DNA of 64,000 nucleotides from Bolinopsis microptera (Eukaryota > Ctenophora > Tentaculata > Lobata > Bolinopsidae). Of the stretch, positions 7,461 through 51,288 are shown piece by piece (position 1 is the first letter of the stretch; every line of letters begins with the position of its first letter). The notes under the pieces are model-generated. The model was not told where the DNA came from and did no database searches. It worked only from the letters and a program-made list of their open reading frames with translations. Made by a program: the position numbers and the translations under genes. Where the stretch lies: positions 14,568,667 to 14,632,666 of the forward strand of contig NC_087074.1 in the NCBI RefSeq assembly GCF_026151205.1, in the 5' to 3' direction.

Positions 7461-7689
7461 CCAAAAAAAAATTGGGCCCCCCCCCTTCCAACTTTTTTTT
7501 CATCTGCGATCTTTTCTCCGTCTTTGTCTCGATCTGAATAAATTTCATAGTAACATTATTTTAATGATACGATGTTTTAAATTTCATCACATTACGCATT
7601 GCAATACTAATAACTACTGTATAAATCTAGGTAATGTTTAATGCGAGTACTAATAGAATAAATCTGACTAAATAGAACGTGGTTTCCTC

Positions 7690-11010: not shown

Positions 11011-12265
11011 TAAAGATGGCAGAATCGTGAATGGCAGCTAACTTACTTATAGGCCATTTGTATGAGATCAAGTTAGTCATGCTCGGCATTAAACTTATAA
11101 GCATTGCCCAACATACCTAAGAATCTAAGATAAAGAGTCGGAGTTATTTCTTACGATGAACAAAGTTGGTGTGATTATTACTGATCAAGAAACAATGAAA
11201 ACTACTCGTTACTTTATAATTTGGTCCAAAAAAGGTTTATTGACACTCCATAAAGAAATAAAAAACGGTAACAACTCATATTCCATTATCTATCATGTAT
11301 AAAACAACATAAAAACCGTTCTTTACAATAATAGACCGGATCTAATTAAACAACATTACAGCTCAATCGTAGTATTGTAAAACTTCTATTTTAATTTTGG
11401 TCTATTGGAAAAAATTTGTTTAGTTTTTACAACTACGAATATAATACTATAATAACTTATCGTATCAAATAAATAAATTAGACAGAACTCAATTAATACA
11501 TTTCCAGAATGGAGGGAAAATTAACCCGATTTTTAGATCAATAACAACTACGTTACCAAATATTTCAAAACTGACAAATCTATTACAATTATTGATTAAT
11601 ATCATTATGTAATGGAGGGAAGCGTTTTAACCAGGTGTAGCTAGTCCACATCCCCTAGCTCTATAATAAGAAGTAAAATGTTTCAATTCTAACTGAAAAG
11701 CTCAAATATAATAAATCACAATCTATTATAGAAATTAGGGATTCACCGACATGATGAAGAACCAGTTCTGGAGTAGCCCGAATCAATGCCACCACAGGAT
11801 CGGTTAACTATATAAGACTCCCAGACAATGTCCAAAGCAAATCGGTATCACGGGTGATGTGTTGTTTCACTAATAACAGTTTTCACTTCAAAGTATCATA
11901 TCAATCTTTGTCAAAATTCAACTTATTATAGATTTAATCAAAAAGTTTTATACCAAAATGCGGTTCTTAGGCGCATGCAATGTTAGACAGTTACTTGATT
12001 TATAACTTAATTACAGCATACGGAAATATTTACCCTTCTGTTAAGGCAAACGCAGAAAGCAGATAGATCTTCTAAATTTAATTTATACTGTTCTAATGAT
12101 TTTCACAACTTTTAATTCTTTAAAGAAATTGACATAACCCGTGGTATGCGCTGGCAATACCAATTACTTACAAGAACTGTTATTACGATTGCAAGTAACA
12201 AACTAATAAAGTTAAACCATAGAAATTTAACGCATTTTAAGTTTATCAATTAAACGACTACAAAC
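11011..12265. other. AT-rich spacer of the array unit (copy 1)
   Basis: This is the part of the unit downstream, on the minus strand, of the VPS13D-like stop codon. It contains no exon I can support. Low-complexity A/T runs and short phrases such as AATTAATACATTTCCAGAAT are conserved in all copies. It presumably holds the 3-prime UTR and polyadenylation site of the chimeric gene; TTTATT/AATAAA-like motifs are too common here to choose one. Confidence 0.5.
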
Positions 12266-12269
12266 TGTG

Positions 12270-13983
12270 CTATCTTGTGTCCCTTTCCACTATTTACTGA
12301 AATTTTTGCCACCGCTAACTAAAAAAAGCACCTCTCTCTTCAGATCATAGCATACTGAATGTCCTGACTGATCTTGAGGCTAGTTTTTCTGAAGTTACGT
12401 TGAGTTTGGGACACGAGTCAGGAGCCATGTAAAACTCCTGGTGAGGAGAGTATCTTAGATCTGTAAAGCTAGGTTATGTTCTGTAGTTCCCACCGATAAT
12501 CCGGGGAGCATACACGCACTGTCCCTATCGAGTCTACATGATCTCCTTACAACCTTGTACCAGATTTCACTCGATAAGTCTGACCCGCCTCACTTGACAA
12601 ACCAGGATCTTGAGGCGGGTGTTCACCACACACCATGAAATGAACTGTTCCTCACGTGACTTGCGGTCAGTTTCACAGAGTAGCCAGCCCTTTGCAGTGT
12701 CTGTGGAGAAGATTGCCAGGTTCTCTCCACTTCAACATCGAGGCATGCCGTATTCTTTTATCTCTCCTGAGAAGAAAAGAATATCGATATGTTTTCTTCC
12801 TTTTATTGTATTTGTAAAACAAAACGTGTTACACAAATTAATGGTGCTTCTGATTGGTTGTCAGTAGAATTACTTACCGATACTGTGACTAGATCAGTAC
12901 TCTGCGTATGGCCAGTGTAGTCCCTGAGGCAAAGTCGAGTAAACCAGCAGCTGGTTTAAGCAACAGTCCAATGAGACCCTTTAGCCTAGTCCGGTCACTG
13001 CCCCGTTCACCCGGTCTTGGTTAAACCCTCTCACATATAGAACTGGGAAATGCTGTAAGCCCTCCGATAAAGTTCCACTTTCTTAACCCCTGCCATCCTG
13101 CACTCAGACAGTACACTTGAACCATCCAAAACCCTCAGAGCTCGCTCCACTTCAACTGTGAAGTCTATGTGTCCGGGGTGCCTAATCAGGGTTCAACTGG
13201 TTACCTGGGAAAAAAATGGAATTTCCACAATTTATTCATACTCTTGATTATTTCAAAATTAAAAAGATGAAAAATGTATTTAACAAGTTGGAATACTACA
13301 TAGCATCCAGTTAATCAAAACTTAACTCGTTTCAACCTCCCAACCTTTCCACAGCAGAGATGTAGCAGCAGAATTAATTGGTGATTCCTCGCTGCTTCTC
13401 CGTGTCCATAACTGTCCATCTTAGGCTCCTACACCGTCCCTTACCTGAACAAACATGTCTTAAACGAACCGACCTCTTTAAATTGGGAAAATTTTGACGG
13501 TAGTTTATTGTTAGTAAGAATATATACGACGGACATTAATTGACCTAATAAATAGCAAATGATCGTGAACCAGAAACAACAAGTTACCACAAACCTTTGA
13601 CATCGTAATAGCGTCTATTTCTCCGCCGTAGAAGGTAATTCGTTCTGGACAACCGTTGTCTTGCCGGAGTCAATATGTGGCTGACTTTCCTGACGAAGTT
13701 AGTATAAGTATCTATGACAAAACAGTCATACTTTAAACAGATTTACCCGGATTTATTATTCATTTTTTCAAATACGATGCTTAGAGCTTGTGAGCTAGCT
13801 TTTGACCTCCGGCGAAATCTCGGCCAACTCAATCATCTTTTAAATCGAATTTGAATAAAATGTTTCAAAAATCCAACAAACCAATATTTCCGATGTTTTC
13901 TTCCTACTTTAGTAAACGCAGGGTTTGAAGACATTTGATTCTGAAAGACGGCGGAATGGGAGACGTCTGGTATAGTTTTTCAT
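12270..13983 (-). CDS. Chimeric GFM1-VPS13D-like gene, array copy 1
   Basis: The predicted product is about 330 residues. Exon positions (minus strand): about 13882-13983 (start codon, basic Ser/Thr-rich presequence-like MKLYQTLTTSAVFRIKSST, then VENIRNIG), 13595-13689 ([18 protein letters not shown], the P-loop), 13345-13444 (GVGAKMDSMEL and QRGITINSAAT), 12878-13204, about 12440-12766, and 12270-12388. The first part follows mitochondrial elongation factor G1 through its [18 protein letters not shown] motif. At about 13121 the exon switches in frame to VPS13D-type sequence ([31 protein letters not shown]), then RIRLPRCC and LKILVSSERVRLIE, with the terminal helix DIQYAIDLKREAA before the stop. 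The splice phases I could check agree, given one extra base in a few C/G homopolymers. The GTPase part lacks the G4/G5 motifs, so it should not cycle as a translocase; organelle targeting of the VPS13D tail is inference. In this copy the base calls are noisy. Confidence 0.72.
13121..13123 (-). other. Fusion point EF-G1 / VPS13D-like (copy 1)
   Basis: On the minus strand the coding sequence passes from GAGGGTTTTGGATGG (EF-G1, Val-Leu-Asp-Gly) straight into TTCAAGTGCAAGTCTGAGAG (VPS13D-like) with no intron. The equivalent points are about 17226, 21243, 25212 and 29196. At 33361-33362 the VPS13D side continues instead into native upstream sequence. Confidence 0.8.
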
Positions 13984-14039
13984 CTCGTACCTCGAAAACA
14001 CTAATTTTGAAAATTAGAAATATTCAGAAAATGTGTTAT

Positions 14040-14160
14040 TGGACTGGTTTGGGGAGCGGCTAGGGCGCTTTAATAATTCTTGCCCATCTTCACCGCTGCC
14101 CCGGTCCCCCGAGACTTCATCTTTACTTTCGTCTGTTTCACTCTCTGTTTCAATCATCAG
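14040..14160 (-). other. Conserved exon-like block upstream of the chimeric start
   Basis: The minus strand reads ESKDEVSGTGAAADDGQELL followed by KRPRPLPKTSP after a possible acceptor, and stops just before the predicted start codon. All units keep it (near 18180, 22200, 26170 and 30180). It is richer in GC than its surroundings. It may be 5-prime UTR, an upstream open frame or an alternative first exon; I cannot decide. Confidence 0.35.
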
Positions 14161-14359
14161 GTACTAGCTATGTAACATGATAATCGAGCTGAGCTAAAGT
14201 TTCAACGTAACAACGATTCGAGTATGGTTACAGACAAACCAAAAACCCCCACGCAGCAAACGCTCTAACCATTTGAACAACAACCATTGCACTGCCAACT
14301 GTACACGGTCCTCACACACTTCTTAAACCAAGTACTTTTATACCCACATAGTTGAACGG

Positions 14360-14830
14360 AACATTTACTTTGGCGTAAGGCTGCCCTGCAAGCGATAACT
14401 GATGACCTAGCTCCTCATATAAGGCGTGTAATTTAGGGTGCAAATATCGACGTGCTAGATGCAGCAAGCTAAGAGATACCCTGCAAGTGATTACACCGGA
14501 GCTAGCTCAACAGTCCCCCTGTTAATTATGACTTATCTGGCCCCGTAATACCTTGCAAAATCACGTGCTAATCCGCCACTAAGCGCGCTCAATCGCTATC
14601 TCGTGACTCTCACGTGACAGCTATCAAGAAATTTCCCTATATGCGCTCCGTTGAAAACTAGGCAAGAGCTAGTTTTGAGCATTAACTCGGCAGGACAATT
14701 CTCAATCTGTAGTTTAATCTGAATAGTTAACGACTCAAACAGTCGACGATGGAACAGATATTTTGCGAGCTTTCTCTACGAGAAATAGCACGCTTCACAA
14801 ATTCTGGCGAACCTTCCTTTAAAGGAGGAC
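14360..14830 (-). promoter_or_regulatory. Promoter-like block of the array unit, with E-box palindromes
   Basis: Between the start codon and the next spacer, each unit keeps a block of higher GC with CACGTG-type E-boxes. These include ATATCACGTGCTA and CTCTCACGTGACAGCTATCA, followed by CCTATATGGCGCCTCC. The positions in copy 1 are about 14560-14650. The block lies 0.4-0.8 kb upstream of the chimeric start codon on the minus strand. E-boxes of this form bind bHLH-ZIP factors (USF/TFE/MYC). Calling this the promoter is inference from position and conservation. Confidence 0.35.
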
Positions 14831-16370
14831 CCACAGAAAGTTACATCAGGAATTATAGTATGGATTAAGTTTAACAATAAAGTAAAATTTATGACTGGAC
14901 AAGCCTTGCGGCAATCACTCAATGTGAGACTCATATTTCAAATTGTCCAGGATTCATATCAATAGAAAAGGACCATTTTGTAAATGAAACCCATAGTGTC
15001 AACATATTAGAACCATTCCAATTTCCGTGATCTCATTCAACACAAGAAATAAGTTAAATTAATCCGCCATTGTGCTAGAGCCTATCCTGTAAGACTGTTG
15101 TAAAGATTGTGGGCAGATCGTAGAATGGCAAGCAATCTTAATTATATGCCATTGTATGATATCATGTTACTCATTCTCGCATAAACTTATAACAGTGCCC
15201 AACAACCTAAGAATCTAAGATAAAGAGCTCTGGAGTTAATTTCTTACGATGAACGAAAAGTTTTGGTTTTGATAAAAAAAAAAAAATATTACTGTTGAAG
15301 AAACAATGAAAACAACTCGTACTTTAATATTTTGTTTCCAAAAAAGTTTATGACACTCCATAAAGATATAAATAAACGTAACAACTCAATAATTATTATC
15401 ATCTGTAGAAAACAACATAAAAACCGTTCTTACAATAAAGACGTGATCTAAATTTAAACTACAGTTACAGCTCTATCGTAGTAAATGTAAAACTTCTATT
15501 TAATTTGTTTCTTCTGGAAAAAAATTTGTTTAGTTTTACAACTTACAATATAAATATACTATAGAAATCTTATCAGTCTCAAATAAATAATTAGACATAA
15601 TCAATTAATACATTTCCAGAATGAGGGGAAAAATTGAACCGATTTTATATCAATAACAACACGATTACCATTAATTACAAAACAACAAATCTGTTACATT
15701 ATTGAGTATATCATTATGTAATGGTATGGAATCTTTTAACCAGGTGTAGCTAGTCCACAGCCCTAGCCCTATAATACAAGAAATTGTTTCAATTCTAGCT
15801 GAAAAAGCCCCCTGTCCTAATAAAAATAAAAAATAAATCACAATCTATTTATAGAAATTAGGAATTCCCCGACATGATGAAGAACCAAGTCTGATGAGCC
15901 CATATCAGATCCACCCACAGGATCGGTTACTATATAAGGACCTCCAACCAATGTCAAAGCAAATCGGTATCACGGGTGAGGTGTTTTTTCACTAATAACA
16001 GTTTCACTCAGTATCATATCAATATGTCAAAATTCAACTTATATAGATTTAATCAAAATTTTATACAAAATGCTGGTCTAGCGCTATGCAATGTAGACAG
16101 TTACTTGATTTAACTTATTTACAGCATAGTCTGCAAATAATTTACCTTCTGTAAGCAAACCAGAAAAATAGGATTTCTAAATTTAATTTATACAGTCTAA
16201 TGGATTTACCACAACTTTTAATTCTTTAGAAGAAAATTGACATAACCGTGTATTGCGCGGCAATACCAATTATTACAAGACATGTTTAAAAGATTGCATG
16301 TAACAAACTAATAAAGTAAACCATAGAATTTAACCCATTAATTTATCAATTAAACGACTACAAAACTGTG

Positions 16371-18051
16371 CTATCTTGTGTCCTTCCACTATTACTGAAA
16401 GTTTTGCCACGCTAACTAAAAAAAGCAGCCTCTCTCTTCAGATCAATAGCATTCTGAATGTCCCTGACTGATCTTGAGGCTAGTTTTCTGAGAGTTACAG
16501 TTAGTTTGGACACGAGTCAGGAGCCTGGTTAAAAACACCTGTGAGGCAGATGTATCGTAGATTGTATAGCTAGTTTATGTTCTGTAGTCCACCGTTATTC
16601 CGGGGACATACACACACTGTCCTATCGAGTCTAACATGATCTCCTTTACAACCTTGTACCAAATTCTCTCCTCGATAAGTCTGTCCCTCTCACTGGACAC
16701 CAGGATCTTGAGGACGGGTGGTTCACTAACACATCAGGAAATGAACTGTTCCTCACGTGACTGCGGTTGAGTTTCCACAGAGTAGCCATGCCTTGTGAAG
16801 TGTCTGTGGAGAAGGAATTGCCAGGATCTCTCCACTGGCAACATCGAGCAGCCGTAATTCTTTTTATCCTCTGAGAAGAAGAAGAATACCGTTTATATGT
16901 TTCCTTCCGTTTATTGTAATTGTAAACAAAACGTGTTAACCCAAAATTAAGGTTATAACTGTTTGGTTGCTGAGAAGAAATTAACTTACCGATACTGTGA
17001 CTAGATCGAGTACTCTTGCGTTATTGCCAGTGTAGTCCTCTGAGCAAAGTCGAGTAAACAGCAGCTGGTTGAGCACAGTTCCAATGAGACCTTATCTAGT
17101 CCGGTCCACTGCCCCGTCACTCCGTCTTGGGTTAATCCCTCTCCTATAGAACTGGAATGCTTGTAAGCCCTCCATAAGTCCACTTCATAACCCCTGCCAT
17201 CCCTGCTCTCAGACTTACACTTGATACCATCCAAAACCCACAGACTCGCTCCACTTTCAACTGTGAATCCTATGTGGTCCCCGGGGTGTCTATCAGGTAA
17301 ATTTATTCATACTCCTTGATTTAAATATTCAAAATTAAAAAGAGGAAAAATGTATTTGATTTTAACAAGTTGGATACTACAGACATCCCAGTTAATCAGA
17401 ACTTAACTCGTTTCACCACCAACCTTTCCAAAGAGAGATGTACACAGATTTAATGTTGATTCTCGCTGCTCTCCAGTTCATAACTGTCCATCTTAGCTCC
17501 TACACGTCCTTACCTGATACCAAACATTTCTCTTAAACCTAACCGACTCTGTAAAGGGAAAATTTTGAAGGTAGTTATTGTTAGTAAGAATATATACGAC
17601 GGTCATTAATTGACCTAATAAATAGCAAATGATCGTGAACCGAACAACAAGTTACCACAAACCTGACATCGTGAATAGCGTCTATTCTCCCCGCCCCGTA
17701 GAAGGTAATTCGTTCTGACACCGTGGTCTTGCGGAGTTCAATATGTGCTTGACATTCCTGACAGATAGTTTAGTTCATAAGGTAATCTAGTGACAAAACA
17801 GTTCATACTTTAAACAGTTTAACCGGAATTTTATTTAATTCAATTGGTTTCAAAATAGATGGCTTAGAGCTGTGATCTAAGCTTTTTGAACTCGGCGAAA
17901 TCTCGGCAACGGTCAATCATCTTTATATCGAATTTGAATAAAATGTTCAAAAACCAACAAACCATATTCCTGATGTTTTCTACTTTAGTATCGTCAGGTT
18001 GAAGACTTGATTCTGAAGACGGCGGATTTGGTGAGCGTCTGTAAGTTTCAT
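16371..18051 (-). CDS. Chimeric GFM1-VPS13D-like gene, array copy 2
   Basis: Same exon order as copy 1. The start codon is at 18049-18051 and the stop at 16371-16373 (CTATCTTGTG on the plus strand). The P-loop exon lies around 17660-17760 and the QRGITI exon around 17420-17515. The fused exon is 16998-17300, with the fusion near 17226. The C-terminal exons are around 16530-16870 and 16371-16490. This copy is informative for homopolymers. The plus-strand run after the YGG codons reads CCCCGCCCC here, against CCGCC in copy 1, so the missing base that breaks the frame in copy 1 is probably a sequencing undercall. Several other one-base gaps prevent an uninterrupted reading. Confidence 0.65.
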
Positions 18052-20397
18052 CTGTACCATGAAAAACACTAAAATTTTGAAATTAGAAATTTTCAGAAAA
18101 TGTGTTATTGGACTGGTTTTGGGGAGCGCCTAGGCGGTTTAATATTCTTGGCCCATCATCGAGACCGCTGCCCCGGGCCCCGAGACTTCCATCTTTACTT
18201 TCGTCATTTTTCCACTATCTGTTCAATTCATCAAGTTACTAGCTAGTAACATGATAATCGAGCTGAGCTACATTTTCAACGTAACAACGATTTCGAGATG
18301 ATTTCATACAAACCCACGCTCTAACCATTTGAACAACAACCCAGTGCACAGCAACTGTACACGGTCCTCACACAATTTCATTAAACCAAAGTTACTTTTA
18401 TACCCACATAGTTGACGAACCATTGACTTGAGCGTACGGCTGCCCTGCAAGCGATAACTGAAGACCTAGCTCCTCCTAAAGGCGTGTAATTATGTGTGCA
18501 ATATCAAGTGCTAGATGCAGCAAGCAAGAATACCCTGCAAGCTTCACCGAGAGCTAGCTCAACATCCCCCTGTTAATTATGAATTATATGGCCCGCGTAA
18601 TTCCTGTGCAAATATCACGTGCTATATGCCGCCACTAAGGCGCGCTCAATCGCTATCTCGTGACTCTCACGTGAACAGCTATCAAAAGGAAATTCCACTA
18701 TATGGCGCCTCCGTGTAAACAGGAAAGAGCTTAGTTTGACATTAACTAGCAGGACAATTCTCAAATCTGTAGGTTTATCGATTACGTTTAACGACTCAAA
18801 CAGTCGACGATGGAACAGAATAAATTTGCGAGCATTTTCTCCTACGAGAATAGCCACCGCTTCACATATTCTGGCGGAACCTTCTTTTAAAGGAGGACTC
18901 CAAAGAAAGATACATCAGAATTATAGTATGGTTTAAGTTACTAATAAGTAAAATTTATGATCTGACAAAGCCTTGCGGCCATCACTCATGTGAGACTCAT
19001 ATTTCAAATTGTCAGGTTTCATATTTCAATAAAGAAGGAACCATTTGTTAATGAAACCCATAGTGGTCAAAATTTAGAACCATTCCCAATTTTCCGTGTT
19101 CTCATGCCACTCAAGAAATAATTAATTAATCGCCATTGTGCTAGAGCAAATCCGTTAGACCTGTTGTAAAGATGCAGATCGTGAATGGCAAGCTATCTTA
19201 CGTATAGGCCATGTATGATATCATGTTTAGATCATGCTCGCAATAAACTTATAAGCATTGCCAACATACCTAAGAATCTAAGATAAGAGCTCTGATTTAT
19301 TTCTGACGATGAGACAAAAGTTTGTTTGATATTACTGATTAAGAAACAATGAAAACTAACTCGTTACTTTATATTTGTGTCCAAAAAGGTTTAATGACAC
19401 TCCATAAAGATATAAATAACGGTAGCCCCCGCAACTCATATTTATTATCTATCTGAGAAAACAACATAAAAACCGTCTTTACAATATTAGACCGTGATCT
19501 AATTTTAACTCAGTTACAGCTCTATTCGGTAGTATTGTAAAAACTTTCTATTTTAATTTGGTTCTTTTGGAAAATTTGTTTATTTTTACACTAACGAATA
19601 TAATAGACTTTAGAAATCTATCGTATCAAATAAATAATTAGACATACCACATATTAATTCATTTCAGAAGCGGGAAAATGAACGATTTTAGATCAATAAC
19701 AACACGATTACCAATTAATTACAAAACTACAAATCTGTACATTTATGAGTATTATCAATTAAGTAATGGAATGGAAACTTTTAACCAGGTGTACAATCCA
19801 CAGTCCGAGCCCTATACTACGAAGAAATTGTTTCATTCTAGCTGAAATCCTACATATTAATAAATCCACAATCTAATAAGAAATTGGGGATTCACCGACA
19901 TGATGAAGAACCAAGTTCTGATTAATCCCATATCAGATGCCACCACAGGAATTCGATACTAATAGAAGACACCAGACAATGTCAAAGCAAATCGGAATCA
20001 CGGGTGAGGTTTGTTTTCACTAATAACAGTTTTTCACTCATATCATATCAATATTGTCAAAATTTTTAACTATTATAGATTTATTTTAATTTAACAAAAA
20101 GCTGTCATAGCGCATGCAATTTAGACAGTAACTATGATTTAACTTATTTACAGATATCTGTCAAATAATTTACCCTTCTGTAAGCAAACCATAAAGCGAT
20201 AGTCTTCTAAATTTAATTTATACTGTTCTAATGAAATTTTAGAACTTTTAGTTCTTTGCTTTAGAAGAATATTGACATAACCGTTTATTGCGCTGGCAAT
20301 ACCAATTAATTACAAGAACACGTTTTAAGATTGATGAAAGTTAAACCATAGAATTTTAAACCATTTAATTTATCAATTAAACGACTACAAAAATGTT

Positions 20398-22085
20398 CTA
20401 TCTTGTGTCCCTTCCACTATTACTAAAAGTTGCCACCGCTAACAAAATAGCACCTCTCTCTTCAGATCAATAGCATACTGAATGTCCTGGCAGATCTTGA
20501 GGCTGGTTGTCTGAGAGTTACAGATTAGTTGGGACAAGAGTCAGGAGCCATATTAAAAACACCTGGCGGAGCAGAGTATCGTAGATCTGTAATACTAGGT
20601 TATGTTCTGTAGTTCCACCGTGATTCCGGGATCAATACACACCTGTCCTATCGAATCTAATATGAACTCCTTCACAACCTGTTACCAGATACTCTCTCTA
20701 TAAGTCGGACCCTCTCACTGGACACATGATCTTGAGCGGGTGTTCACCACACACCAGGAAATGAACTTTCCTCACGTGGACTTGCGGTTCAGTTTCCACA
20801 TGAGTAGCCATGCATTGTGCTGTGTCTATGGAGAAGATTGCAGGATCCTCTCCATGAACCATCGAGGCAGCCGTATTCTTTTTATCTCTCCTGAGAAAAG
20901 AATAATATCGTTATGTTTCTTCTTGTTTATTGTAATTGTAACACAAAACGTGTTAACACCAAATTATGGTTATACTGTTAGGTTTGCCTGAGTAGAAATA
21001 CACTTATCGATACTTTGACTAATCGAGTACTCTGCGTAATGGCCAGTTAGTCCCCAGAGGCAAAGTCGAAGTAAACCAGCAGCTGGTTGCAACAGTTTCC
21101 AATGAGGACCTTTAGCTATCCGGTCACTGCCCCCTCACTCCGTCTTGGTTAATCCCTCACTATAGAACTGGGAATGCTTGTTAAGCCCTCCGATAAGTCC
21201 ACTTACTTAACCCTGCCATCCTGCTCTCAGCTAGCACTATGAACCATCCAAACCTCAGAGCTCGCTCCACTTCAACTTGAAGTCTATGTGTCCTGGGGTG
21301 TCTATCAGGTTCTACTGGTTTACCTGTTGAAAAAAATGGAATTTCACAATTTTTTCATACTCTTGATTTATTTCAAATTAAAGAGGAAAAATTATTTTAA
21401 CAAGTTGGATACAACAGAGCATCCCAGTTAATCAGAACTAACTCGTTCACACCAACCTTTCACAGCAAGATGTAGCAGCAGATTTAATGGTGATTCTCGC
21501 TGCTTCTCAGTCCTACTGTCCATCTTAGCTCCTACAACGTCCTTACCTGATACAAACATTCATTAAACCAAACCGACTCTGTAAATTGGGAAATTTTGAC
21601 GGTAGTTATTGATAGTAAGAATATATACGACGGTCATAATTGACCAATAATAATGCAAATGATCCGTGAACAGAACAAAACAAGTTACCACAAACCTTGA
21701 CATCGTGAATAGCGTTATTCTCCCGCGTAGAAGAGAATTCGATCTGACACCGTGGTCTTGCCGAATCAATATGTGCTGACCATTCCTGAACAGATAGTTT
21801 AGTTTTAATGAAGGTAATCTAGTGCAAAAACAGTCAACTTTAAACAGATTTACCCAGATTTTATAATTCATTTGGTTTCAAATAGATGGGCTTAGAGCTG
21901 TGAGCTAACTTTTGAACTCCGGCGAATCTCGGCCAACACAATCATCTTTATATCGAATTTGAATAAATGTTTCAAAAATCCAACAAACCAATATTCCTGG
22001 ATGTTTTTCTACTTTATAATCGTCAGGGTTGGGGAAGACTTGACTCGAAGACGCGGAATGTGGTGAGCGTCTGGTATAGTTTCAT
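20398..22085 (-). CDS. Chimeric GFM1-VPS13D-like gene, array copy 3
   Basis: Start codon 22083-22085, stop 20398-20400. Recognisable blocks in minus-strand order are the P-loop exon around 21675-21790, the GVGAKMDS/QRGITI exon around 21440-21560, the fused exon about 21000-21330 (fusion near 21243), the RLPRCC exon with the PH-like segment around 20560-20895, and the short terminal exon. The base before the fusion is intact, but the VPS13D side has local scrambling (CTCAGCTAGCAC), probably consensus error. No copy-specific lesion is shared with other units, which argues for errors in the assembly rather than old, fixed decay. Confidence 0.62.
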
Positions 22086-24357
22086 CTAGTACCTCGAAAC
22101 ACTAAATTTTTGAAAATTAGAAATTTTTCAGAAAAAGATTTATTGGACTTGTATTTGGGGATCGGCCTTAGGGCGCTTTAATATTCTTGCCCAAGCATCA
22201 GCCGCTGCCCCGCTGGTCCCCGAGACTTCATCTTTACTTTCGTCTGGTTTTCCACTCTCTGTCAATCATCAAGTTTTACTAGCTAGGTATCATGATAATC
22301 GAGCTGAGCTACGAGTTTTCAACGTAACAACGATTTCGAGATGGTTCAGACAAACCCACGCTCTAACCATTTGAACAACAAAACCAGTGCACTGCCAACT
22401 GTACACGGTCCTCACACACTATCATTAAACTAAGTTACATTATACCCACATAGTTGACGGAACATTTTCTTTGCGTAACGGCTGCCCTGGCAAGCGATAA
22501 ACTGATTACCTAGCTTCCTCCCATAAAGCGTGTATTAGGTTTGGCAAATATCACGTGCTATATGCCGCCACTAAGCGCGCTCAATCGCTATCCGTGACTC
22601 TCACGTGACAGCTATCAAAGGAAATTCCTATATGGCGCCTCCGGTGTTAAACTAGGAAGAGCTAGTTTGAAGCATAAAGTAGCAGGACAATTCTCAATCT
22701 GTAGTTTTAATCTGATTACTTTAACGACCTCAAACAGTCGACGATGAACAGATAAATATGCGAGCATTTTTCTCCTACGAGAAAGCAAGCTTCAAAATTC
22801 TGGGCGAACCTTCCTTTAAGGGAGACTCCAATGAAAGGTACATCAGAATTTATAGAATGGGATTAAGTTACAATATAGTAAAATTTAAGAATCTGACAAA
22901 GCCTTGCGGCAAATCACTCAATGTGAGACTCATATTTTCAAATTGTCCAGAATCCATATGTCTATAGAAGAAGGAACCATTTGTAAAGAAACCATAGTGT
23001 CAACAATTAGAAACCATTCCAATTTCCCGTGTTCCTCCATTCAACTCAAGAAAATAGTAATTAATCGCCATTGGGCTAGAGCCACCTGTAGACTGTTTGT
23101 AAAGATGGCAGATCGTGAATGGCCAGCTATCTTACTTACAGGCCATTGTATGATATTTATGTTATTCAGGCTGCAAATAAACTTATAAGCATTGCCCACA
23201 TACCTAAGAAACTAAAATAAAGAGCTTCTGAGTTTTTTCTACATGAAACGAAAAGGTTTTTGGGTTTGATTCAGCTTACTAATTAACGGAGAATCTACTC
23301 ATATAGAAACAGCCCTCGTTACTTTATAATTTGTGTCCAAAAAAGGTATTGACACTCCTAAAGATATATAAACGGTAACAACTCTATTTATTAACTATCT
23401 GTAGAAACAACTAAAAACCGTCTTTACAATAAAGACCGTGATCTAATTTAAACTACAGTTACAGCTCAATCGTAGTATTGTAAAACTTTTATTTTAATTT
23501 GGTTCTTTTTGAAAAAATGTGTTTTAGTTTTACAACTTACGAATATAATTGACTATAGAAATCTTATCCGGTAATCAAATAAATAATTAGACAGACACAA
23601 TTAATACATTCCAGAAATGAGGGGAATATTGAACCGATTTTTAAATCATACCTACACGATTACCAATTAATTACAAACTACAAATCATTACATTTTTGAG
23701 TATTATCAATTATGTAATGGATGAAACTTTTTAACCAGGTGTAAGCTATCCACACCCTAGCCCTATAATACGAAGGAAAAATTGTTTCAATTCTACTGAA
23801 ATCTCTAATATAATAAATCACAATCTATTAATAGAAATTGGGGATTCACGACATGATGAAGAAACAAGTCTGATGTAGCCATATCAGATGCACCACAGGA
23901 TCGGTTACTATAGAAGACTCAGACCATGGTCAAAGCAAATCGTTATCACGGGGTGAGGTGTTGTTTCACTGAATAACAGTTTTCACTCAGTATCAAATCA
24001 ATATGTCAAAATTTACACTTATTATATATTTTAATTTTAATTTATACAAAAAGCTGTCATAGCGCAATTCAATGTTAGACAGTTACTTGATTTAACTTAT
24101 TTACAGGATAGTCGCAAAATTGTACCTTCTGTAAGCAAACCAGAAAGCAGATAGATCTTCTAAATTTTAATTTATAACTGTTCTAATGAATTTTAGAACT
24201 TTTAGTTCTTGCTTTAGAAAAGGAAAAAAAAAAATGACATAAACGTGTATTGCGCTGGCAATACCAATTAATTACAAGAACACGTTTTTAAGATTGATGA
24301 GTTAAAACCATATGAATTTTAACCATTAATTTTTATCAATTATCGACTACAAACGTG

Positions 24358-26059
24358 CTATCTTGTGTCCTTCCACTATTACAAGAAAGTTATGCCAACC
24401 GCTAACTAAAAAAGCAGCCTCTCTCTTCAGATCATAGCATACTGAATGTCCTGCTTGATCTTGAGGCTGTTTTTCCTGAATATACAGTGAGTTTGGACAA
24501 GAGTCCAGAGCCATACTAAAACACCTGCGGATGCAGAGAACGTAGAATCTGTATAGCTGAGGTTATGTTCTGTAGTCCAGCCGTTATTTCCGGGGAGCAT
24601 ACACAAACACTGTCCCTATCAGTCGTAATATGATCTCTCACAACACTTGTTACCTGATTCTCTCTCGATAATTCTGACCCGCTCACCTGACACCGGATCT
24701 TGTGAGGGTGTTTCACCACACACCAGGAAATGAACTGTTCCTCACGTGACTTGCGGTTCAGTTTCCTCAGAGTAGCCATGCCTTGTGCTGTGTCTATGAG
24801 AAGATTGCCAGGATCTCTCCACTGCAACATCGAGGCAGCCGTATTCTTTTTTATCCTCCTGAGAAGAAGAAGGATTAATCGTTATGTTTCTTCTTGTTTA
24901 TTGTAATTTGTAAAACAAAACTGTAACACCAAATTATGGTTATACAGTGGGTTGCTGAGTAGAAATACACATACCGATACTGTGACTAGATCGAGTACGC
25001 CCTGCTTAATGGCCAGTGTAGTCCCTGAGGCAAAGTCGAATAAACCAGCAGCTGGTTTAAGCAAACAGTGCAATGAGACCTTTAGCTATCCGGTCACTGC
25101 CCCGTCACTCCCGTCTTGGTTAATCCCTCCACTAAGAACAGGGAATGCTGGAAGCCCTCCGATAAGTCCACTTCTTAACCCTGCCATCCTGCTCACAGAC
25201 ATGCACTTGAACGATCCAAAACCCTCAGAGCTCGCTCCACTTTCAACTGTGAGTCTATGTGTCCGGGGGTGTCTATCAGGTTCAACGGTTACCTGTGAAA
25301 AAAATGGAATTTCACAATTTAATCATACTCTTGATTTATTTCAAAATTTAAAAAGAGGAAAAATTTATTTAACAAGTGTGATACTACAGAAGCATCCCAG
25401 TTAATCATAACTTAACTCGTTTCACCACCAACCTTTTCCACAGCAGAGATGTAGCAGCAGAAATTAATGGTGATTCCCGCTGCTGTCTCCAGTTCCATAC
25501 TGTCCAACTTAGCTCCTACACCGTCACTTACCTGATACAAACAATTCTTAACCTAGCAGACTCTGTAAATTGGAAATTTTTTACGGTAGTTATTGTTAGT
25601 AAAAATATTATACTCAAAGTAATTGACCTAATAATAGCAAATGATCGTGAGACCGGAGAACAACAGTTACCACAAACCTTTGACATGTGAATAGCGTCTA
25701 TTCTCCGCCTAGATGAGAATTCGTTCTGACCGTGGTCATGCCGGAGTCCAATATGTGCTTACATCCTGACAGATTGTTTAAGTTAATAAGGTAAACAAGT
25801 GACAAAAACAGTCATACTTTAACATATTACTCCGATTTTTTATTAATTCATTTGGTTTCAAAATAGATGGCTTTAAGAGCGGTGAGCTAAGCTTTTGAGA
25901 CTCCGGCGAAATCTCGGCCAACTCAATCTCTTTATATCGATTTTGAATAAAATTTTCAAAAATCCTACAAACCAATATTCATGATGTTTGTCTACTTTAT
26001 ATCGTCAGGTTGATGACTTGATTCAGAACGGAGATGTGGTGAGGTCTGTATAGTTTCAT
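24358..26059 (-). CDS. Chimeric GFM1-VPS13D-like gene, array copy 4
   Basis: Start codon 26057-26059, stop 24358-24360. This copy gives the longest continuous read of the VPS13D PH-like region. At 24516-24830 the minus strand is open and shows [26 protein letters not shown] and parts of the following helix. At 24952-25073 it shows [16 protein letters not shown]. The upstream exon with the acidic linker and NIRNIG-equivalent is at about 25970-26059. The fusion lies near 25212, where one base (CGATCC for CCATCC) differs from the other units. Relation to EF-G1 and VPS13D as in copy 1. Confidence 0.65.
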
Positions 26060-28357
26060 CTAGTACCCTCGAAAACACTAAATTTTTGAAAATTAGAAAT
26101 TTTCAGAAAATGTGTTATTGGACTGGGTTTTGGGGAGCGGCCTAGGCGCTTTTAATAATTCTTGTCCCATCACACCGCTGCCCCGGTCCCCGAAGACTTC
26201 ATCATTACTGACGTCTGGTTTTCCACCTCTCTGTTCAACAACAAGTTACTAGCTAGGTAACAGAAAATCGATCTGAGCTACAGTTTCAACGTAACAACGA
26301 TTTCGAGGATGGGTTCAGACAAACCCACGCTCTTACCATTTGAACAACAAACCAGTGCACTGCCAACTGTACACGGTCCGTCACACACCTTTCATTAAAC
26401 CAAAGTTACTTTTATACCCACATAGTTACGGAACATTTACATGTGCGTAGGCTGCCCTGCAAGCGATAAACGAGACCTAGCTCCTCCCATATAAGGCGTG
26501 TAATTAGGTGTGCAAATATCACGTGCTATAGGCCGCCCACTAACGCGCTCAATCGCATCTCGTGACTCTCACGTGACAGCTATCAAAGTAATTCCCTATA
26601 TGGCGCCTCCGGTGTAAACTAGGAAAGAGCTAGTTTGAGCATTAGTAGGCCAGGACAATTCACAAATCTGTAGTTTATTCTGCTTACGTTAACGACCAAA
26701 CATTTCGACGATGGGAACAGATAAATTTGCGAGCATTTTCTCCTTCGAGAATAGCACGCTTCAAATATTATGGCTAACCTCCTTTAAAGAAGGACTCCAA
26801 TGAAATTTACATCAGGAATTATAGTAATGGGATTAAGTTTACAATAAAGTAAAATTTAATAATCTGACAAAGCCTTGCGGCCAATCACTCATATGTGAGA
26901 CTCATATTTCAATTGTCCAGGATTCATAATTCAATAAAAGAAGAACCATTTTGTTTAAAGAAACCCATAGTGGCAACATTTAGAACCATTTCCAATTTCC
27001 GTTTTCTCATTCAACTCCAAGAAATAAGTTAATTAATCGCCATTGGTGCTAGAGCTATCCTGTAGACTGTTGTAAAGAGGCAGATCGTGAAGGCAGCTTA
27101 TCTGTACTTTACAGCCATTGTATTATATTATGTTTATTCATGCTCGCAAATAAACTATATAGCATTGCCCAACATACTAAGAATCTAAAATAAAGACTCT
27201 GGAGTTAATCTTACGAAGAGACGTAAAAGTTTGGTTTGATTGATTACTAATTAAGAAACAATGAAAACTACCGTTACTTTATATTTGTTGGCCAAAAAAG
27301 GTTTATTGACACCCATAAAGATATAAATAAACGATAACAACTCATATTTTATTATCTATCTGTAGCAAACAACATAAAAACCGTTCTTTACAATAATAGA
27401 CCGTGATCTAATTTTAAACTACAGATACAGCTCTATCGTAGTATTGTATAACTTTAATTTAATTTGGTTCTTTGGAAAAAATGTGTTTTAGTTTTACAAC
27501 TTAACGAATATAATAGACTATAAGATATCTTATCGGTATCAAATAAATAATTATACAGACCAATAATACATTTCCAGAATGAGGGGAAAATTGAACCGAT
27601 TTTTTTAGAACAATAACAACACGATTACCAATAATAACAAAACTACAAAATCTATTACATTTATTATTATTATCAATTATGTATGGGATGGAACTTTTTC
27701 AAACCTGTGTAGCTAGTCCACACCCTAGCCCTATAATACGAATAAAATGTGTTCAATTCTAGCTGAAAAGCCTAATAAAATAAATCACAAATCCCCCTTA
27801 AATTTTTTTTATTTAAATTAAAAAAGAAAAAAAATTAGGAATTCACACGACATGTATGAAGAACCAAGTCTGATGTAGCCATATCATATGCCACACAGGA
27901 CGGTTACTATAGAAAGACTCCAGACAATGTCAAAAGCAAATCGTTATCACGGGTGAGGTGTTGTTTTTCACTAATAACACTTACACTCATATCATATAAA
28001 TATTGTCAAAATTTAACTTATTATGATTTAATTTTTAATTTTATCCAAAAAGCAGGTCAAATCGCATTCAATGTTAGACAGTTACTTGATTTAACTTATT
28101 TACAAGGATAGTCGGCAAAATATTTTTACCCTTCTGTAAGCAAACCAGAAAGCAGATAGATCTTCTAAATGTAATTATACTGTTCTAATGAATTTTAGAA
28201 CTTTTATTCTTTGCTTTAGTATAAAAGTTGACATTAACCGTGGTATTGCGCCTGGCAATACCAAATAATTACAGAACACGTTTTTTAGATTGATGAAGTT
28301 AAACCATAGGAATTTTAACATTATAAATTTTATCAATTAAACGACGACAAAACTGTG

Positions 28358-30075
28358 CTATCTTGTGCCCTTCACTAGTAATAAAAGTTTTTGCCACCGC
28401 TAACTAAAAAAGCAGCCTCTCTCTTCAGATCAAAATCATACTGAATGTCCTGGCAGATCTTGAGCTGTTTTCTGAGAGTTACAGTTGAGTTGGGACAAGA
28501 GTCAGGACCATATTAAAAACACCTGCGGAGGCAGAGTATCGTAGATCGTATAGCTAGGTATGTCGTAGTTCCACCGTTTATCCGGGGAGCATACACAACA
28601 CTGTCCTATCGGTCTAATATGATCTTCCTTCACAACCTGTACCAATTCTCTCTCGATAAGTCTTACCCGCTCACTGGACACCAGGATCTTGAGCGTGTGT
28701 TCACCACACACCAGGAAAGAACTGACCCACGTTGACTTGCGGTTCAGTTTCCACAGAGGTAGCCATGCCTTGTGCGTGTCTATGGAGAATATTGCCAGGA
28801 TCTCTCCACTGCAACACAGGCAGCCCGTATTCTTTTATCCTCCTGAGAAGAAGAAGAAATCGTTATGTTTCTTCTTGTTTTTATTGTAATTGTAAAACAA
28901 AACGTGTTAACACCAAATTATGGTTATACTGTTTTGGTTTGCTGAGTAGAAATACACTTAACCGATACTGTGACTAGACGAGATACTCTGCGTAAGGCCA
29001 GAGTAGTCCGTGAGGCAAAGGTCGAGTAAACCCAGCAGCTGGTTTAGCAACATCCCAATGAGACCTTTAGCTATCCGGTCACTGCCCCGTCACTCCGTCT
29101 TGGTTAATCCTCTCCACTATAGAACTGGGAGCTGTAAGCCCTCCGATAAGTCCACTTCTTAACCCCTGCCACCCTGCTCTCAGACTTGCACTTGAACCAT
29201 CCAAAACCCACAGAGCTCGCTCCACTTCATCTGTAAGTCTATGTGTCCGGGGGTGTTTTTTTATTAAATTATTTTTTTTTATTTTGTTTTTACTATCAGG
29301 TTCAACTGGTACCTTGAAAAAAAGGAATTTCACAATTATTCCATACTCTTGATTTATTTTCAAATTTAAAAGAATGAAAAATGTATTTAACAAGTTGGAT
29401 ACTACAGAGCTATCCCAGTTTAATCAGAACTTAACACGTTTCACCACCAACCTTTCCACAGCAGAGATGTATCAGGCAGCTTTAATGGTGAGTCCTCGCT
29501 GCATCTCACCGTTCCATACTGTCCATCTTAGCCCTACCCGTCCTTACCTGATACAAACAATTTCTTAAACATAACCGACTCTTAAATTGGGAAAATTTTG
29601 ACGGTAGTTATTGTTAGTAAAATATTTACACGGTCATTAATTGACCTAATAATAGAAATCATACATCGTGACCAGAACAACAAGTTTCCACAAACCTTTG
29701 ACATCGTGAATAGCGTCTTCTCCACGACGTAGAAGAGAATACGTTCTGACACCGTGGTCTTGCGAGTCAATATGTCTGACATTTCCTGACAGATATTTAG
29801 TTAATAAGGTAATCTAGTGACAAAAACAGTCAATACTTTTAAACAGATTTACCCGATTTTATTAATTCATTGGTTTTCAAAAATAGATGCTTAGAGCTGA
29901 GCAAGTTTGAACTCCGCTAAATCTCGGCCAACTCAATCATCTTATACGAATTTGAATAAAAAGTTTCAAAATCCAACAAACCAATATTCCTGAATGTTTT
30001 CTAACTTTAGTTTCGTCCAGGGTTGAAGACTTGATTCTGAAGACGGCGGATGTGGTATCGTATGTATAGTTTCAA
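28358..30075 (-). CDS. Chimeric GFM1-VPS13D-like gene, array copy 5
   Basis: This copy is the clearest direct evidence for the fusion. The minus strand is open through VERALWVLDG (EF-G1) into [20 protein letters not shown] (VPS13D-like) across 29079-29250 without any frame correction, with the fusion at about 29196. The P-loop exon is at about 29695-29780 (KTTVSERILFY is open). The stop is at 28358-28360. The start codon region reads CAAT instead of CAT at about 30073, so the ATG is broken by one inserted base in this copy. An extra T-rich insert of about 35 bp sits inside the G3 exon at about 29257-29292. The promoter-proximal region carries the G-rich patch at 30341-30507. Confidence 0.68.
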
Positions 30076-30337
30076 TCTAGTACCTCGAAAACTCTAAATT
30101 TTGAAAATTAGAAATTTTCAGAAATGTGTTATAGGACGGTTTTGGGGAGCGCCTAGGGCGCTCTAATAATTCTTGCCCCATCATCAGCCGCTGCCCCGGT
30201 CCCCGAACTTCATCTTTACTTTCGTCTGGTTTTCCACTCTCGTCAAATCATCAGTTACACTAGGTAACATGATAATCGAGCTGAGCTACAGTTTTTCACC
30301 GTAACAACGATTTCGAGATGGTTCAGACAAAAAATAA

Positions 30338-30508
30338 GAGGGGGGGGGGGGGGTAGATGGGGAGGGGGGATGGGGGGGGGGGGGGTGTGGGGGGTGGGGG
30401 GTTGGGAAAGGGGGGGGGGTGGAGTGAAAGGTGGGGGGGGGGGGGGGGGGGGGGGGGGGAGGGGATAGCAGGGGGAAAGGGGGGGGAGATTATGGGGGGT
30501 GGGGGGGT
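30338..30508. repeat. G-rich low-complexity patch replacing unique sequence in copy 5
   Basis: Where the other units have about 55 bp of ordinary sequence (ACCCACGCTCTAACCATTTG and following), copy 5 has about 170 bp composed almost only of G with scattered A and T. The flanks on both sides resume the normal unit. It could be a real expansion, but an artefact of consensus building at a low-quality position is at least as likely. Proline- or glycine-rich frames across it are meaningless. Confidence 0.7.
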
Positions 30509-32503
30509 AACGTCCTCTAACACACTTTCAATTAATCCAAAGTTACTTTTATACCCACTTAGTTGACGGAACATTTACTTTGTGCTACAGGCTGCCCTGC
30601 CTAGCATAAACTGATGACCCTAGCTCCTCCCATATAAAGGCGTGTAATTAGTGTGCAAATCACTGCTATAGTGCCGCCACTAATCGCGCTCAATTGCAAT
30701 CTCGTGACTCTCGACGATGACAGTCTATCAAAGGAAATTCCCTATATTGCGCCTCCGTGTAAGGACAGAAGGAAAGAGCTAGTTAAGAGCCATTAAATAG
30801 CAGTACCAATTCTCAATCTGTAGTTTTTTAATCTATTAGTTAGACGACTGCCAAACAGTCGACGAAGGAACAGATAAGTTGCGATGCATATTCTCCTACG
30901 AGAATAGCACGGCAACAAATATTCTGGCTGAACCTTCCTATAAAGAGGAGCACCAAAGAAAGTTACATCAGAAAAGTGTAAGGGAGTTAAGTGTACAATA
31001 AAGTAAAAATTTATGAATCTAGACAAAGCCCTTGCGCCAATCACAGTCAATGTGGAACACAAATTTGAAAAATTGTCCAGATTCATATGTCAATAGAAGA
31101 AGAACCAATTGTAAATGAAACCCATAGTTGTCAACAATTAGAACCATTCCAATTTCCGTTTTATCATCAACTCAAGAAATAAGTTAATTAATCGCATTGG
31201 TGCTAGATGCCTATCCGTAGACTTTGTAAAGATGGCAGATCGTGAATGGCAGGCTATCTTACTTACAGGCCATTGTAAGATATTATGTAATTCATGCTCG
31301 CAATAACTTATAAGCATTTGCCCAAACTTATTTTTTAAACAAATACCTAAAGAATCTAAATAAAAGAGCTCAGGAGTTATTTCTTAACGATGAGACGAAA
31401 AGTTTGTTTGATATTACTAATTAAGAAACAATGAAAACTAAACTCGTTAACGTTATATTTGTGTCCAAAAAGGTTATTGACACGCCATAAAGATATAAAA
31501 TACACGGTAACACTCATATTAATTATCTATCTGTAGAAAAAACATAAAAAACCGTTCTTTACAATAATAGACCGTGATCAACTTTAAACTTACAGTTACA
31601 GCTCTTAACCGTAGATTGTAAAACTTTTATTTTAATTTGGTTCTTTTGGAAAAAATGTGTTTAGTTTTACAACTTACGAAATATAATAGACTATAGAAAT
31701 CTTATCGTATCAGATAAATTAATTAGACAGACTCAATTAATACTTTTCCAGAATGAGGGGAACATGAACCGATTTAGATCAATAACAACACGATATACCA
31801 ATTAATAAAAAACTAACAAATCTATACATTTATTTGATTAAATCAATTATGTAATGGGATTGAAAACTTTTAACCCAGGTGTTGCAGTCACAGCCCTAGC
31901 TCTATAATACGAAGAAATTGTTCGATTCTAAGCTGAAAAGCCTCTAAACTAATAAATCCCAATTAATATAGAAAATAGGAATTCACCGACATGAATGAAG
32001 AACCAAGCGATTAGTAGCCCATATCAGATCCACCACATGATCGGTTACTATATAAGACTCCAGACAATGTCAAAGCAAATCGGTATCACGGGGTGAGTTT
32101 TGTTTTCACTAATAACAGTTTTCACTCAGTATCCTTATCAATATGTCATAATTCCAACTTATTATAGATTTAATTTAAAGTTATACAAAATTGCTGGTCC
32201 TTAGCGCATGCAATTATAGACAGTTACTTGACTTAACTTATTTACAGGATATCGGCAAATAACTTACCCTATCTGTAAGCGAAACCAGAAAGCAGATAGA
32301 TCTTCTAAATTTAAATTTAATACTGTTCAAATGGATGTCACAACTTTTAATTCTTTATAAGAAAATTGACATAACCGTGTGATGCGCTGCAATACCATTT
32401 TAATTACAAGAACATGTATTTTAAGATTGCATGTAACAAACTAAAAAGATTAAACCAAGAACTTTAACCAATAAATTTATCAATAAACGACTACAAAACA
32501 GTG

Positions 32504-33409
32504 CTACTGTGTCCCTTCCACTATACTGAAAGTTTTTGGCCACCGCTAACTAAAAAAGCAGCCTCTCACTTCAGATCAAAACATACTGAATGTCCTGAAT
32601 ATCTTGAGCTAGATTTTCTAGAGTTACAGTTGAGTTTGGGACAAGAGTCAGGAGCCATAATAAAAACACCTGGTGGAGGCAGATATCGTAGGATTCTGTA
32701 TAGCTATTTATGTTCTGTAGTTCCACCGTTTTATTCCGGGGAGCAAACACACACTGTCCTATCGAGTCTAACATAAACTCCTTCACAACCTTGATACCAG
32801 ATTCTCTCTCGAAAATCTGACCCCTCACAGACACCAGGATCTTGAGGCGGGTGTTCACCACACACCAGAGAAATGAACTGTTCCTCCCACTTGACTTGCG
32901 GTCAGGTTTCACACAGAGTAGCCATGCCTTTTTTCTGTGTCTGTGAGGAAGATTGCCAGGATCTCTCCACTGCAACATCGAGGCAGCCGTAAGCTTTTTA
33001 ATCTCTCCCTGAGAAGAAGAAGAAAATCGTTATGTTTCTTCCGATTATTGTAATTGTAAAACAAAACGTGTTAACACCAAAATTATGGTTAGACCTGTTT
33101 GTTGCTGAGTAGAAATAAGCTTAACCGATACTGTGACTAGATCGAGTCTGCTGCGTAATGGCCATTGTAAGTCCCTGAGGCAAAGTCGAGTAAACCATCA
33201 GCTGGTTTAGCAACAGTCCACTGAGACCTTTAGCTAGCCGGTCCACGCCCCGTCACTCCGTCTTGGTTAATCCCTCTCACTAAGAACTGGGAATGCTTGG
33301 TAAGCCCTCGATAATCCACTTCTTAACCCCTGCCATCCTGGCTCTCAGACTTGCACTTGAACTCTGGTATCAGTCGGAGAAATGGAAATTTGGTTGCTTC
33401 CACAATCGA
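32504..33409 (-). CDS. VPS13D-like C-terminal exons, native right-hand copy
   Basis: This is the partial sixth unit. In minus-strand order it has an exon ending the VPS13 adaptor/ATG2-like C-terminal region (GLRSGLIGG, then KGLIGT and KPAAGL-type segments), an exon with [19 protein letters not shown] and VKEFMLDSIGQCV, and a terminal exon with QDIQY and the stop near 32504. VPS13D is a bridge-like lipid-transfer protein acting at ER-mitochondria and peroxisome contacts. Unlike the array copies, its first exon is not joined to EF-G1. Upstream of 33361 lies CCAG, a usable acceptor within two bases of the array break; another acceptor is at 33410-33411. Base-level errors remain. Confidence 0.6.
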
Positions 33410-33610
33410 CTGCATTAATAAAAAATAAATATGATACAAAAAGGAATTGGAAAGAAAAAAAGTAAGAAAAGAGATCGCATCAAATAGGAAAGAGCACACG
33501 AAAGAGAAAGAGACGCACAAGAAAAACAAAAGATAAAAAGTCTCCTACCTGGAAGCACTAAGTCTGTCCTCTGTCCGGCCTCTGGAAAGCAATCATCTCC
33601 ACTAACATAC

Positions 33611-33723
33611 GTTAAACACAGAACTAGCATTGAACTGAGTTACTGGCGGTATCTGACATGCCGTGAGCAACACTCTTTACCATTCCTGACACGTCCCATC
33701 CAGCCCCACTGAGAGACCACTCG
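33611..33723 (-). CDS. VPS13D-like upstream exon
   Basis: After an acceptor (TTAACGATTACAG), the minus strand reads GWDVSGMVKSVAHGMSDTAS, followed by a donor (AAC/GTATGT). The pattern Gly-x-Val-Lys-x-Val-x-His-Gly-x-(S/T)-(D/N)-x-(A)-(A/S) is the segment that precedes the glycine-rich repeat of VPS13D C-termini, so order and strand agree with the exons at 32504-33409. One in-frame stop near the 3-prime end requires a single-base correction. I found no further VPS13D exons beyond about 33.76 kb, although the full gene should extend over many kilobases; the locus is therefore broken or rearranged here. Confidence 0.5.
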
Positions 33724-33779
33724 CTGTAATCGTTAACAGCATTCCTATTTTACCTGTGTCATGTGAGGGGAAAGGTTGT

Positions 33780-34600
33780 TTAAAGTTTACGTTATCATGG
33801 TAAGTAACTAGTAGAAACAATGAAATATGAGGTAAAAGTGATGAAATCACGAAGAAGGTAAAGTGTCAAACCTGTCATTTCTGAGTTGAGTGACTATTTT
33901 TGAGTTTATGTCCAACTGCGCAGTCCCTGTAAGTGTCGTAATGATGTTGTCCCTTATAGTTACTAGTAGCTGCTATCACATACTGGTATGGTATCTTGTT
34001 GCAGCATAAAAGTAACGTCCGAGAAGTTCAATAAGTATCTCATTCTAATCCTTGTGTGGATGTCCTTGAGGTCGTCCCTCTAGAACTGGAGCCCGATCAG
34101 ACTGACATTAACCTGGGTCTGGTGAAATTAACAAACTCTCAACTAACACGGGATTGTAACTCCAACTTCCCGTACTCAACTGTACTCCGCTTCTGGATCG
34201 TACTTGGTCGTCTTTTACTTACAACCCAAGAAGAGAAGCCATCTCAAAAACTGTATTAGTTTTCAGAATAGACCCTCGTCGAGCTTGGGAGCTTAAGTTT
34301 TGCGAACAGAGCCTGGACCTCGGGTACACGAACGAACCCTGCCATCGCTCCTAACCTCCAGATCATCTGAAGTGTACTGTATGTTTTCTCCATCCTCATT
34401 CACCGGTTAGATAACAACAGGAACCATTGCCGCCCTACACTGATTATCACCTGTAATCCTAGCAAGATCAAAAACAACCGTTTAGTCCATTTTTTCGAAA
34501 TTTTGAGATATTGGTACCAAAATTTTCAGAAGAAGATTCTCTTCAACAATCAAGTTATGAAAATACTGTTTTAGCTGCCACGATAGGCATTTAGTCACAC
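33780..34600. other. No assignable gene; short open frames
   Basis: A plus-strand frame at 34056-34259 and minus-strand frames around 33990-34110 (DDLKDIHTRIRMRYLLN) and 34290-34410 look somewhat coding-like, but I cannot link them to a family or to firm splice sites. They could be remnants of the VPS13D-like gene. Confidence 0.3.
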
Positions 34601-39101: not shown

Positions 39102-39103
39102 TA

Positions 39104-51280: not shown

Positions 51281-51288
51281 ATTATATC

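Follow-up and report, generated by a model that had tools for sequence, protein, structure and literature searches.

The genome of the comb jelly Bolinopsis microptera carries a real, in-frame, Sdic-like tandem chimera, most likely a by-product that may be transcribed, in which exons of the mitochondrial elongation factor gene GFM1 run into the final two exons of a VPS13-type gene. We consider it fairly probable, taking all parts together, that the array arose by duplication at the 3′ end of the VPS13 gene together with a foreign GFM1-bearing piece, that it grew by unequal exchange, that its intact units are potential genes for a protein of 336 aa, and that the version found in the window (the whole 64-kb stretch of DNA analyzed, C3:14568667-14632666 on scaffold C3) is a misplaced raw read. 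The assembly searched comprises 264.65 Mb in 232 contigs, and nearly all matches fell on the large scaffolds C1-C13; the available sections of the assembly report (PMC10232365) give 13 chromosome-scale scaffolds holding 97.23% of the bases, a 1n size of about 254 Mb, and PacBio CLR reads, wtdbg, TGS-GapCloser, Purge Haplotigs, and pilon as inputs and tools. No account of a GFM1/VPS13 array was found in the accessible parts of the literature on chimeric and tandem genes, ctenophore arrays, and Helitrons.

Self-comparison of the window revealed a minus-strand array of five full units (3.93-4.15 kb) and one partial unit (2.1 kb), with register starts at 11011, 15101, 19167, 23100, 27073, and 31227. 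This bears out the first-pass annotation, which had reported tandem units of ~4 kb carrying GFM1 and VPS13 motifs on this strand. The features are as follows:

7501-34481, no strand assigned: noisy stretch with raw-long-read error, probably a misplaced gap fill; collinear with C3:18905379-18932192
11011-33362, minus strand: tandem array of five full units plus a partial one
11011-13122, minus strand: copy 1, final two VPS13 exons with 3′ flank
13123-13938, minus strand: copy 1, GFM1 piece running from mid exon 1 into exon 4
13939-15100, minus strand: copy 1, 5′ block with the dispersed module
15101-17227, minus strand: copy 2, VPS13 tail and 3′ flank
17228-18010, minus strand: copy 2, GFM1 piece lacking the exon 4 acceptor (33-bp loss, likewise in clean copy v2)
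18011-19166, minus strand: copy 2, 5′ block
19167-21244, minus strand: copy 3, VPS13 tail and 3′ flank, with AT for GT at the donor of the first tail exon, as in clean copy v3
21245-22043, minus strand: copy 3, GFM1 piece
22044-23099, minus strand: copy 3, 5′ block
23100-25212, minus strand: copy 4, VPS13 tail and 3′ flank
25213-26021, minus strand: copy 4, GFM1 piece
26022-27072, minus strand: copy 4, 5′ block
27073-29197, minus strand: copy 5, VPS13 tail and 3′ flank
29198-30034, minus strand: copy 5, GFM1 piece; AT-rich insert in exon 4, absent from the clean copy
30035-31226, minus strand: copy 5, 5′ block, interrupted by G-rich junk at ~30336-30511
31227-33362, minus strand: copy 6, partial, VPS13 tail and VPS13 upstream DNA; its clean counterpart corresponds to the native VPS13 gene end
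33363-34481, minus strand: VPS13 upstream DNA within the noisy stretch

The window copies were only 87-91% identical to their iterated consensus, with insertions (3.0-6.3%), deletions (2.5-3.5%), and mismatches (2.5-3.9%) all contributing. The fusion, said to be open without correction in copy 5, is so over a short stretch across the junction (a 114-aa frame, 29079-29423), but the remainder of that copy is broken by the AT-rich insert and the G-rich junk. Where the junk stands (30336-30511), the clean copy has ordinary sequence, and the junk resembles the failure of a single read.

A clean version of the array lies at C3:18908893-18931085, again with five full units and one partial unit (v1 to v6), at 98.1-99.97% identity over aligned bases. 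Compared with this locus (C3:18905379-18932192), window positions 7501-34481 showed 3.8% insertions, 3.2% deletions, and 2.2% mismatches at a uniform density throughout the noisy stretch, array flanks included. Window copies 1-4 each had their highest score with the correspondingly numbered clean copy. As a whole unit, copy 5 scored almost equally with v4 (6008) and v5 (6004), two copies with 99.97% mutual identity. With the VPS13-derived segment (segment A) alone, each of copies 1-6 scored highest against its own-number clean copy. Both the 33-bp loss in unit 2 and the donor change in unit 3 are present in the two arrays. The noisy fill starts after homopolymer junk, and the dispersed repeat to its left (6414-7023) occurs on many scaffolds genome-wide; among the best 40 of 568 candidates scored, 13 places were 98-99% identical to the window's copy, and the copy beside the clean array was 97% identical. 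The error signature, the matching copy order, the dispersed left repeat, and the use of PacBio CLR reads and TGS-GapCloser in the published assembly suggest that the stretch is most likely a misplaced raw long read of the 18.9-Mb locus put in as gap fill, and probably not a separate amplification at the window site, as had first been supposed.

Alternatively, the window could hold a true second array, by segmental duplication or as an alternative haplotype, rightly filled with one unpolished read. The assembled animal is diploid, and repeats flank the fill at similar offsets in both places: on the left, 6682-6982 (within the dispersed repeat) keeps the same offset, and on the right, 42442-43109 (92.7% identity over 668 bp) nearly so. 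As the right repeat keeps its place, and as the 40 scored left-repeat places fall short of proving misplacement, a true duplicate is a possible reading. However, copy-specific variants occur in identical order at both places, the left repeat is dispersed genome-wide, and no match of at least 150 bp between window and clean locus covers 6983-7500 or lies between 34482 and 40088; a second array is, therefore, unlikely in our estimation. The case serves as a warning that raw-read gap fills can mimic a second gene array.

The anatomy of the unit was read from the clean array and the parental stretches near the breakpoints. In minus sense, v3 (3972 bp) consists of a block containing a dispersed module (1-1052), a GFM1 piece (1053-1866; parent at C3:20376813-20375996), and the last two exons of VPS13 with their 3′ flank (1865-3972). 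The first two parts are referred to as G, and the third is segment A. The GFM1/VPS13 join is 2 bp (GT) common to both sides; it lies in frame within one exon and is identical in all five full clean units, and exons 2-4 splice in phase with one another and with the tail. Both the chimera of GFM1 exons with VPS13 C-terminal exons and a stop and the agreement of splice phases, as first described, are thus confirmed in the clean copy. The array is bounded by VPS13 upstream DNA on the right and VPS13 downstream DNA on the left.

The GFM1 part matched GTP_EFTU (E = 4.7e-33), and its best PDB chains were mitochondrial EF-G1 (6ydp, 6ydw, and 6vlz, about 7e-44), in line with the initial identification of the first motifs; the parent gene lies on the same scaffold, 1.4 Mb from the array. 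The unit keeps the G-domain motifs G1, G2, and G3. G4, G5, and domains II-V of EF-G1 are absent from it, the frame running from VLDG into the VPS13 tail, so that the description as a truncated GTPase without G4/G5 holds. An encoded presequence, in contrast, is improbable from the sequence: GFM1 homology begins mid exon 1 (window 13938, 18010, 22043, 26021, and 30034), leaving the parent's start codon and presequence outside. Exon 1 of the parent opens with a basic, presequence-like stretch. This stretch is missing from the unit, which beyond this point also shows a 9-bp in-frame loss relative to the parent.

Translation of a chimera could begin at exon 2, where all five clean units have an in-frame ATG in place of GTG in the GFM1 parent; none of them has an in-frame ATG farther upstream, as far as the nearest stop. 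From this ATG, the 336-aa chimera is intact with canonical splice sites in v1, v4, and v5. The other two full units carry splice lesions: v2 lacks the exon 4 acceptor, and the donor of v3 is now AT and would have to be used for the same frame. The “complete small gene” of the first-pass annotation is, therefore, unsupported as a description of every unit. If made, the 336-aa protein should remain outside the mitochondrial matrix and be devoid of GTPase function; at most, it would be predicted to compete with VPS13 for partners of the tail.

The 246-aa tail is open in all six clean copies. In PDB, it matched VPS13C (6.9e-12) and VPS13A (1.8e-10), and no VPS13D chain was among the matches; Pfam VPS13_C matched the noisy consensus (4.1e-5), and the clean tail gave no match to it at E ≤ 1. 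In a large protein collection, one relative of the tail (P0001, 56%) was found among 2594 candidates, under a length limit that would miss full-length relatives. A VPS13-type C terminus, thus, stands. Its assignment to VPS13D, in preference to VPS13A or VPS13C, is tentative and goes back to motifs typical of VPS13D C termini and to one VPS13D tail sequence, with which the tail shares 27% identity.

No match to the VAB domain was found inside the array; the matches lie upstream, in the adjoining gene. Of five VAB matches, the N-terminal part accounts for one (C3:18945574-18945951; weak, with E = 9.5e-6 and two TGA inside), and the C-terminal part for four (C3:18933323 and three on C11). Among the best 40 of 539 candidates, ~6.8 kb upstream of the clean array is common, in pieces, to C11:17.34 Mb, ~6 kb to C11:20.78 Mb, and shorter parts to C11:17.386 Mb and C3:21.235 Mb. 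These places are partial duplicates of the VPS13 3′ part. Since the N-terminal part of VAB is found at C3:18945574-18945951 only, the fullest VPS13-type gene likely carries the clean array at its 3′ end, and the C11 copies appear partial. This step is likely rather than proven because the match is weak and interrupted by two stops, and the lack of the N-terminal part on C11 could reflect a missed exon.

Under the explanation we favor, segment A (the last two VPS13 exons and downstream DNA, 2.1 kb) would have been tandemly duplicated with the foreign piece G at the join, G comprising the block with the dispersed module and then GFM1 from mid exon 1 into exon 4, derived from the parent 1.4 Mb away. 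Unequal exchange would then have produced the order upstream-A-[G-A]x5-downstream. An intact unit would constitute a potential small gene, using the GFM1 splice sites, the exon 2 ATG, and the VPS13 stop to encode 336 aa (G1-G3 plus tail). Of the duplication itself, the join is the sole primary trace. We rejected a model in which neighboring parents were simply duplicated in tandem: GFM1 is 1.4 Mb distant, and neither gene accounts for about 1.05 kb of the unit.

Comparison of the units indicated that amplification was not the last event. Between v1 and v3, the G part differs by 0.21% (4/1864) and the A part by 1.85% (39/2103), a ninefold excess for A within the same units, seen in coding and non-coding DNA alike. 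Segment A has, therefore, probably been exchanged with functional VPS13 alleles, to judge from these differences. As G and A of the same units differ in age, a single clean amplification is too simple, and later exchange between the A parts and VPS13 has to be added to the proposed course of events.

A functional new gene family, in which the chimera is expressed and kept by selection (e.g., as a decoy of the VPS13 tail), would agree with the in-frame join, the three intact units, and the largely synonymous changes in the tail. Synonymous and nonsynonymous changes, respectively, numbered 5 and 1 on the v1/v2 branch, 3 and 1 on v3-v5, 3 and 0 on v6, and 5 and 2 on C11; one further nonsynonymous difference fits no single branch. 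The tail pN/pS was 0.03-0.09 for array pairs with both kinds of change, at most 0.12 when array tails were compared with the C11 copies, and 0.32 for one pair of C11 copies. In the GFM1 exons, six synonymous changes and one nonsynonymous change separate unit and parent (P = 0.0009 if neutral), the single nonsynonymous change being the one that creates the exon 2 ATG. Trans-spliced leaders are frequent on ctenophore mRNAs (56% of Hormiphora Iso-Seq reads in the available part of PMC8527503), and by analogy, such a leader could cap exon 2. However, two of the five units have splice lesions, and the excess of differences in A extends to non-coding DNA; the synonymous bias of the tail is a weak sign of selection because it could be imported from the native VPS13 gene by exchange. 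Likewise, the GFM1 counts do not establish selection on the chimera, since the parent branch is itself constrained and the sole codon of this part that differs between units changed nonsynonymously (L to T). Thus, a selected gene family is decidedly unlikely, and the dosage selection or selfish role first suggested for the amplification is speculative, as exchange with the native VPS13 gene could account for the synonymous tail bias.

The block at the 5′ end of the unit is not confined to the array. With 1014 of its 1052 bases as query, 84 matches were obtained among the best 40 of 122 candidates, most of them ending at about one 3′ edge (939-952 of 1014). A translated search with a frame from the block gave 104 matches (113 of 113 candidates scored), which merge into 69 places. 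The window stretch and the clean array account for 5 each; of the remaining 59, 37 lie in 11 same-strand clusters of at least two copies. The spacing is near-constant in some clusters (3528 bp three times on C7, about 2.6 kb on C8, and three on C13); others are irregularly spaced or have one interval only. Among these other clusters, the neighborhood was read at C8:18453640-18455050, where the last exon of a different gene, with a hydrophobic segment, lies beside the module. This exon is present in seven copies in the C8:18.45 Mb array, each with the module 0.27-2.1 kb upstream in the same sense, and in six more at C8:16.5-16.6 Mb, where the module is 2-12 kb upstream in four and not within 70 kb in two. 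Neither Pfam (E ≤ 1) nor PDB gave it an identity (best E 0.24). A long, near-perfect hairpin is found downstream of this exon (C8:18453897-18453980), with weak microRNA-family scores, all below gathering.

The 94-aa frame of the module is unsupported as a coding exon: an antisense frame, one of five alternative frames of the same bases, matched the same eight places at 80-86%, compared with 82-89% for the sense frame, which was 1-3 points higher at each place and free of stops in all eight matches. The module was also rejected as a spliced-leader gene, as the leader given in the available part of PMC8527503 reached 12-13 in the clean units, below the 16 obtained with shuffled sequence; a score of 18 was seen at one site of the noisy array. 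No tRNA was found, and no Rfam family exceeded its gathering score. Outside the window, on the minus strand of C3:14563095-14563136, a sequence resembling that ctenophore leader scored 23 (shuffled maximum, 16) and is not followed by GT; it is perhaps a retrocopy of a trans-spliced mRNA.

The shared 3′ edge (among those best 40 of 122 candidates), the 59 places besides this array, and the different cargo on C8 would fit a mobile element, for example of the rolling-circle type, that picked up pieces of GFM1 and VPS13 and gave rise to the array as a concatemer. No element ends were found, though, inverted repeats in the block are weak, and the comparison with one other module copy extended over 22 bp only. 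Moreover, the cargo A is native to the place of the array, so carriage by an element is not needed, and we regard this origin as quite improbable. A bolder idea, to which we attach a low probability, is that a ~0.75-kb module recurrently comes to form the 5′ end of arrays in which truncated, 3′-terminal gene copies are repeated in tandem (VPS13 with GFM1 on C3, another gene's last exon on C8, and presumably further arrays), acting as a ctenophore factory of short chimeras, possibly expressed via the leader. If the module acts likewise on other genes, this would be a general route to new genes; it is, in any case, a more novel lead than the chimeric array.

Elsewhere in the window, plus-strand frames at 35738-39358 contain LDL-receptor-A-like cysteine repeats and several hydrophobic segments and resemble a receptor by eye; the two frames compared with Pfam had no match there. 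Two genes for MFS-type sugar/organic-ion transporters (minus strand, 51286-53148 and 59475-61336; 83% identical DNA) and an inverted repeat pair (55414-56821 and 57390-58768; 95% identical) were also observed.

If expressed, the array would offer a young chimeric gene in a comb jelly with both parents and breakpoints in hand, and would show terminal exons of a lipid-transfer gene turning into a separate small protein. With GFM1, the unit shares the G1-G3 exons and the scaffold of the parent, but not the presequence, G4, G5, or domains II-V; with the bridge-like lipid transfer proteins of the VPS13 type, it shares the C-terminal tail and stop, but not the lipid channel, N terminus, or VAB domain. 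In Helitron-type capture, a dispersed element lies beside fragments of different host genes with introns. The module is likewise dispersed beside fragments of different host genes, but no element ends were found for it, and an associated transposase would be hypothetical. The closest known case is Sdic of Drosophila melanogaster: in the available part of PMC3395120, this cluster is also a chimera of two genes that are still intact, in tandem beside a parent, with one repeat element upstream of each copy and a copy number that is hard to assemble. There, the parents were neighbors and the coding part came from one of them, whereas the Bolinopsis array, known from sequence alone, draws in-frame coding exons from both parents, the second of which is 1.4 Mb away. 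The array is ordinary in its mechanism and unusual in its parts.
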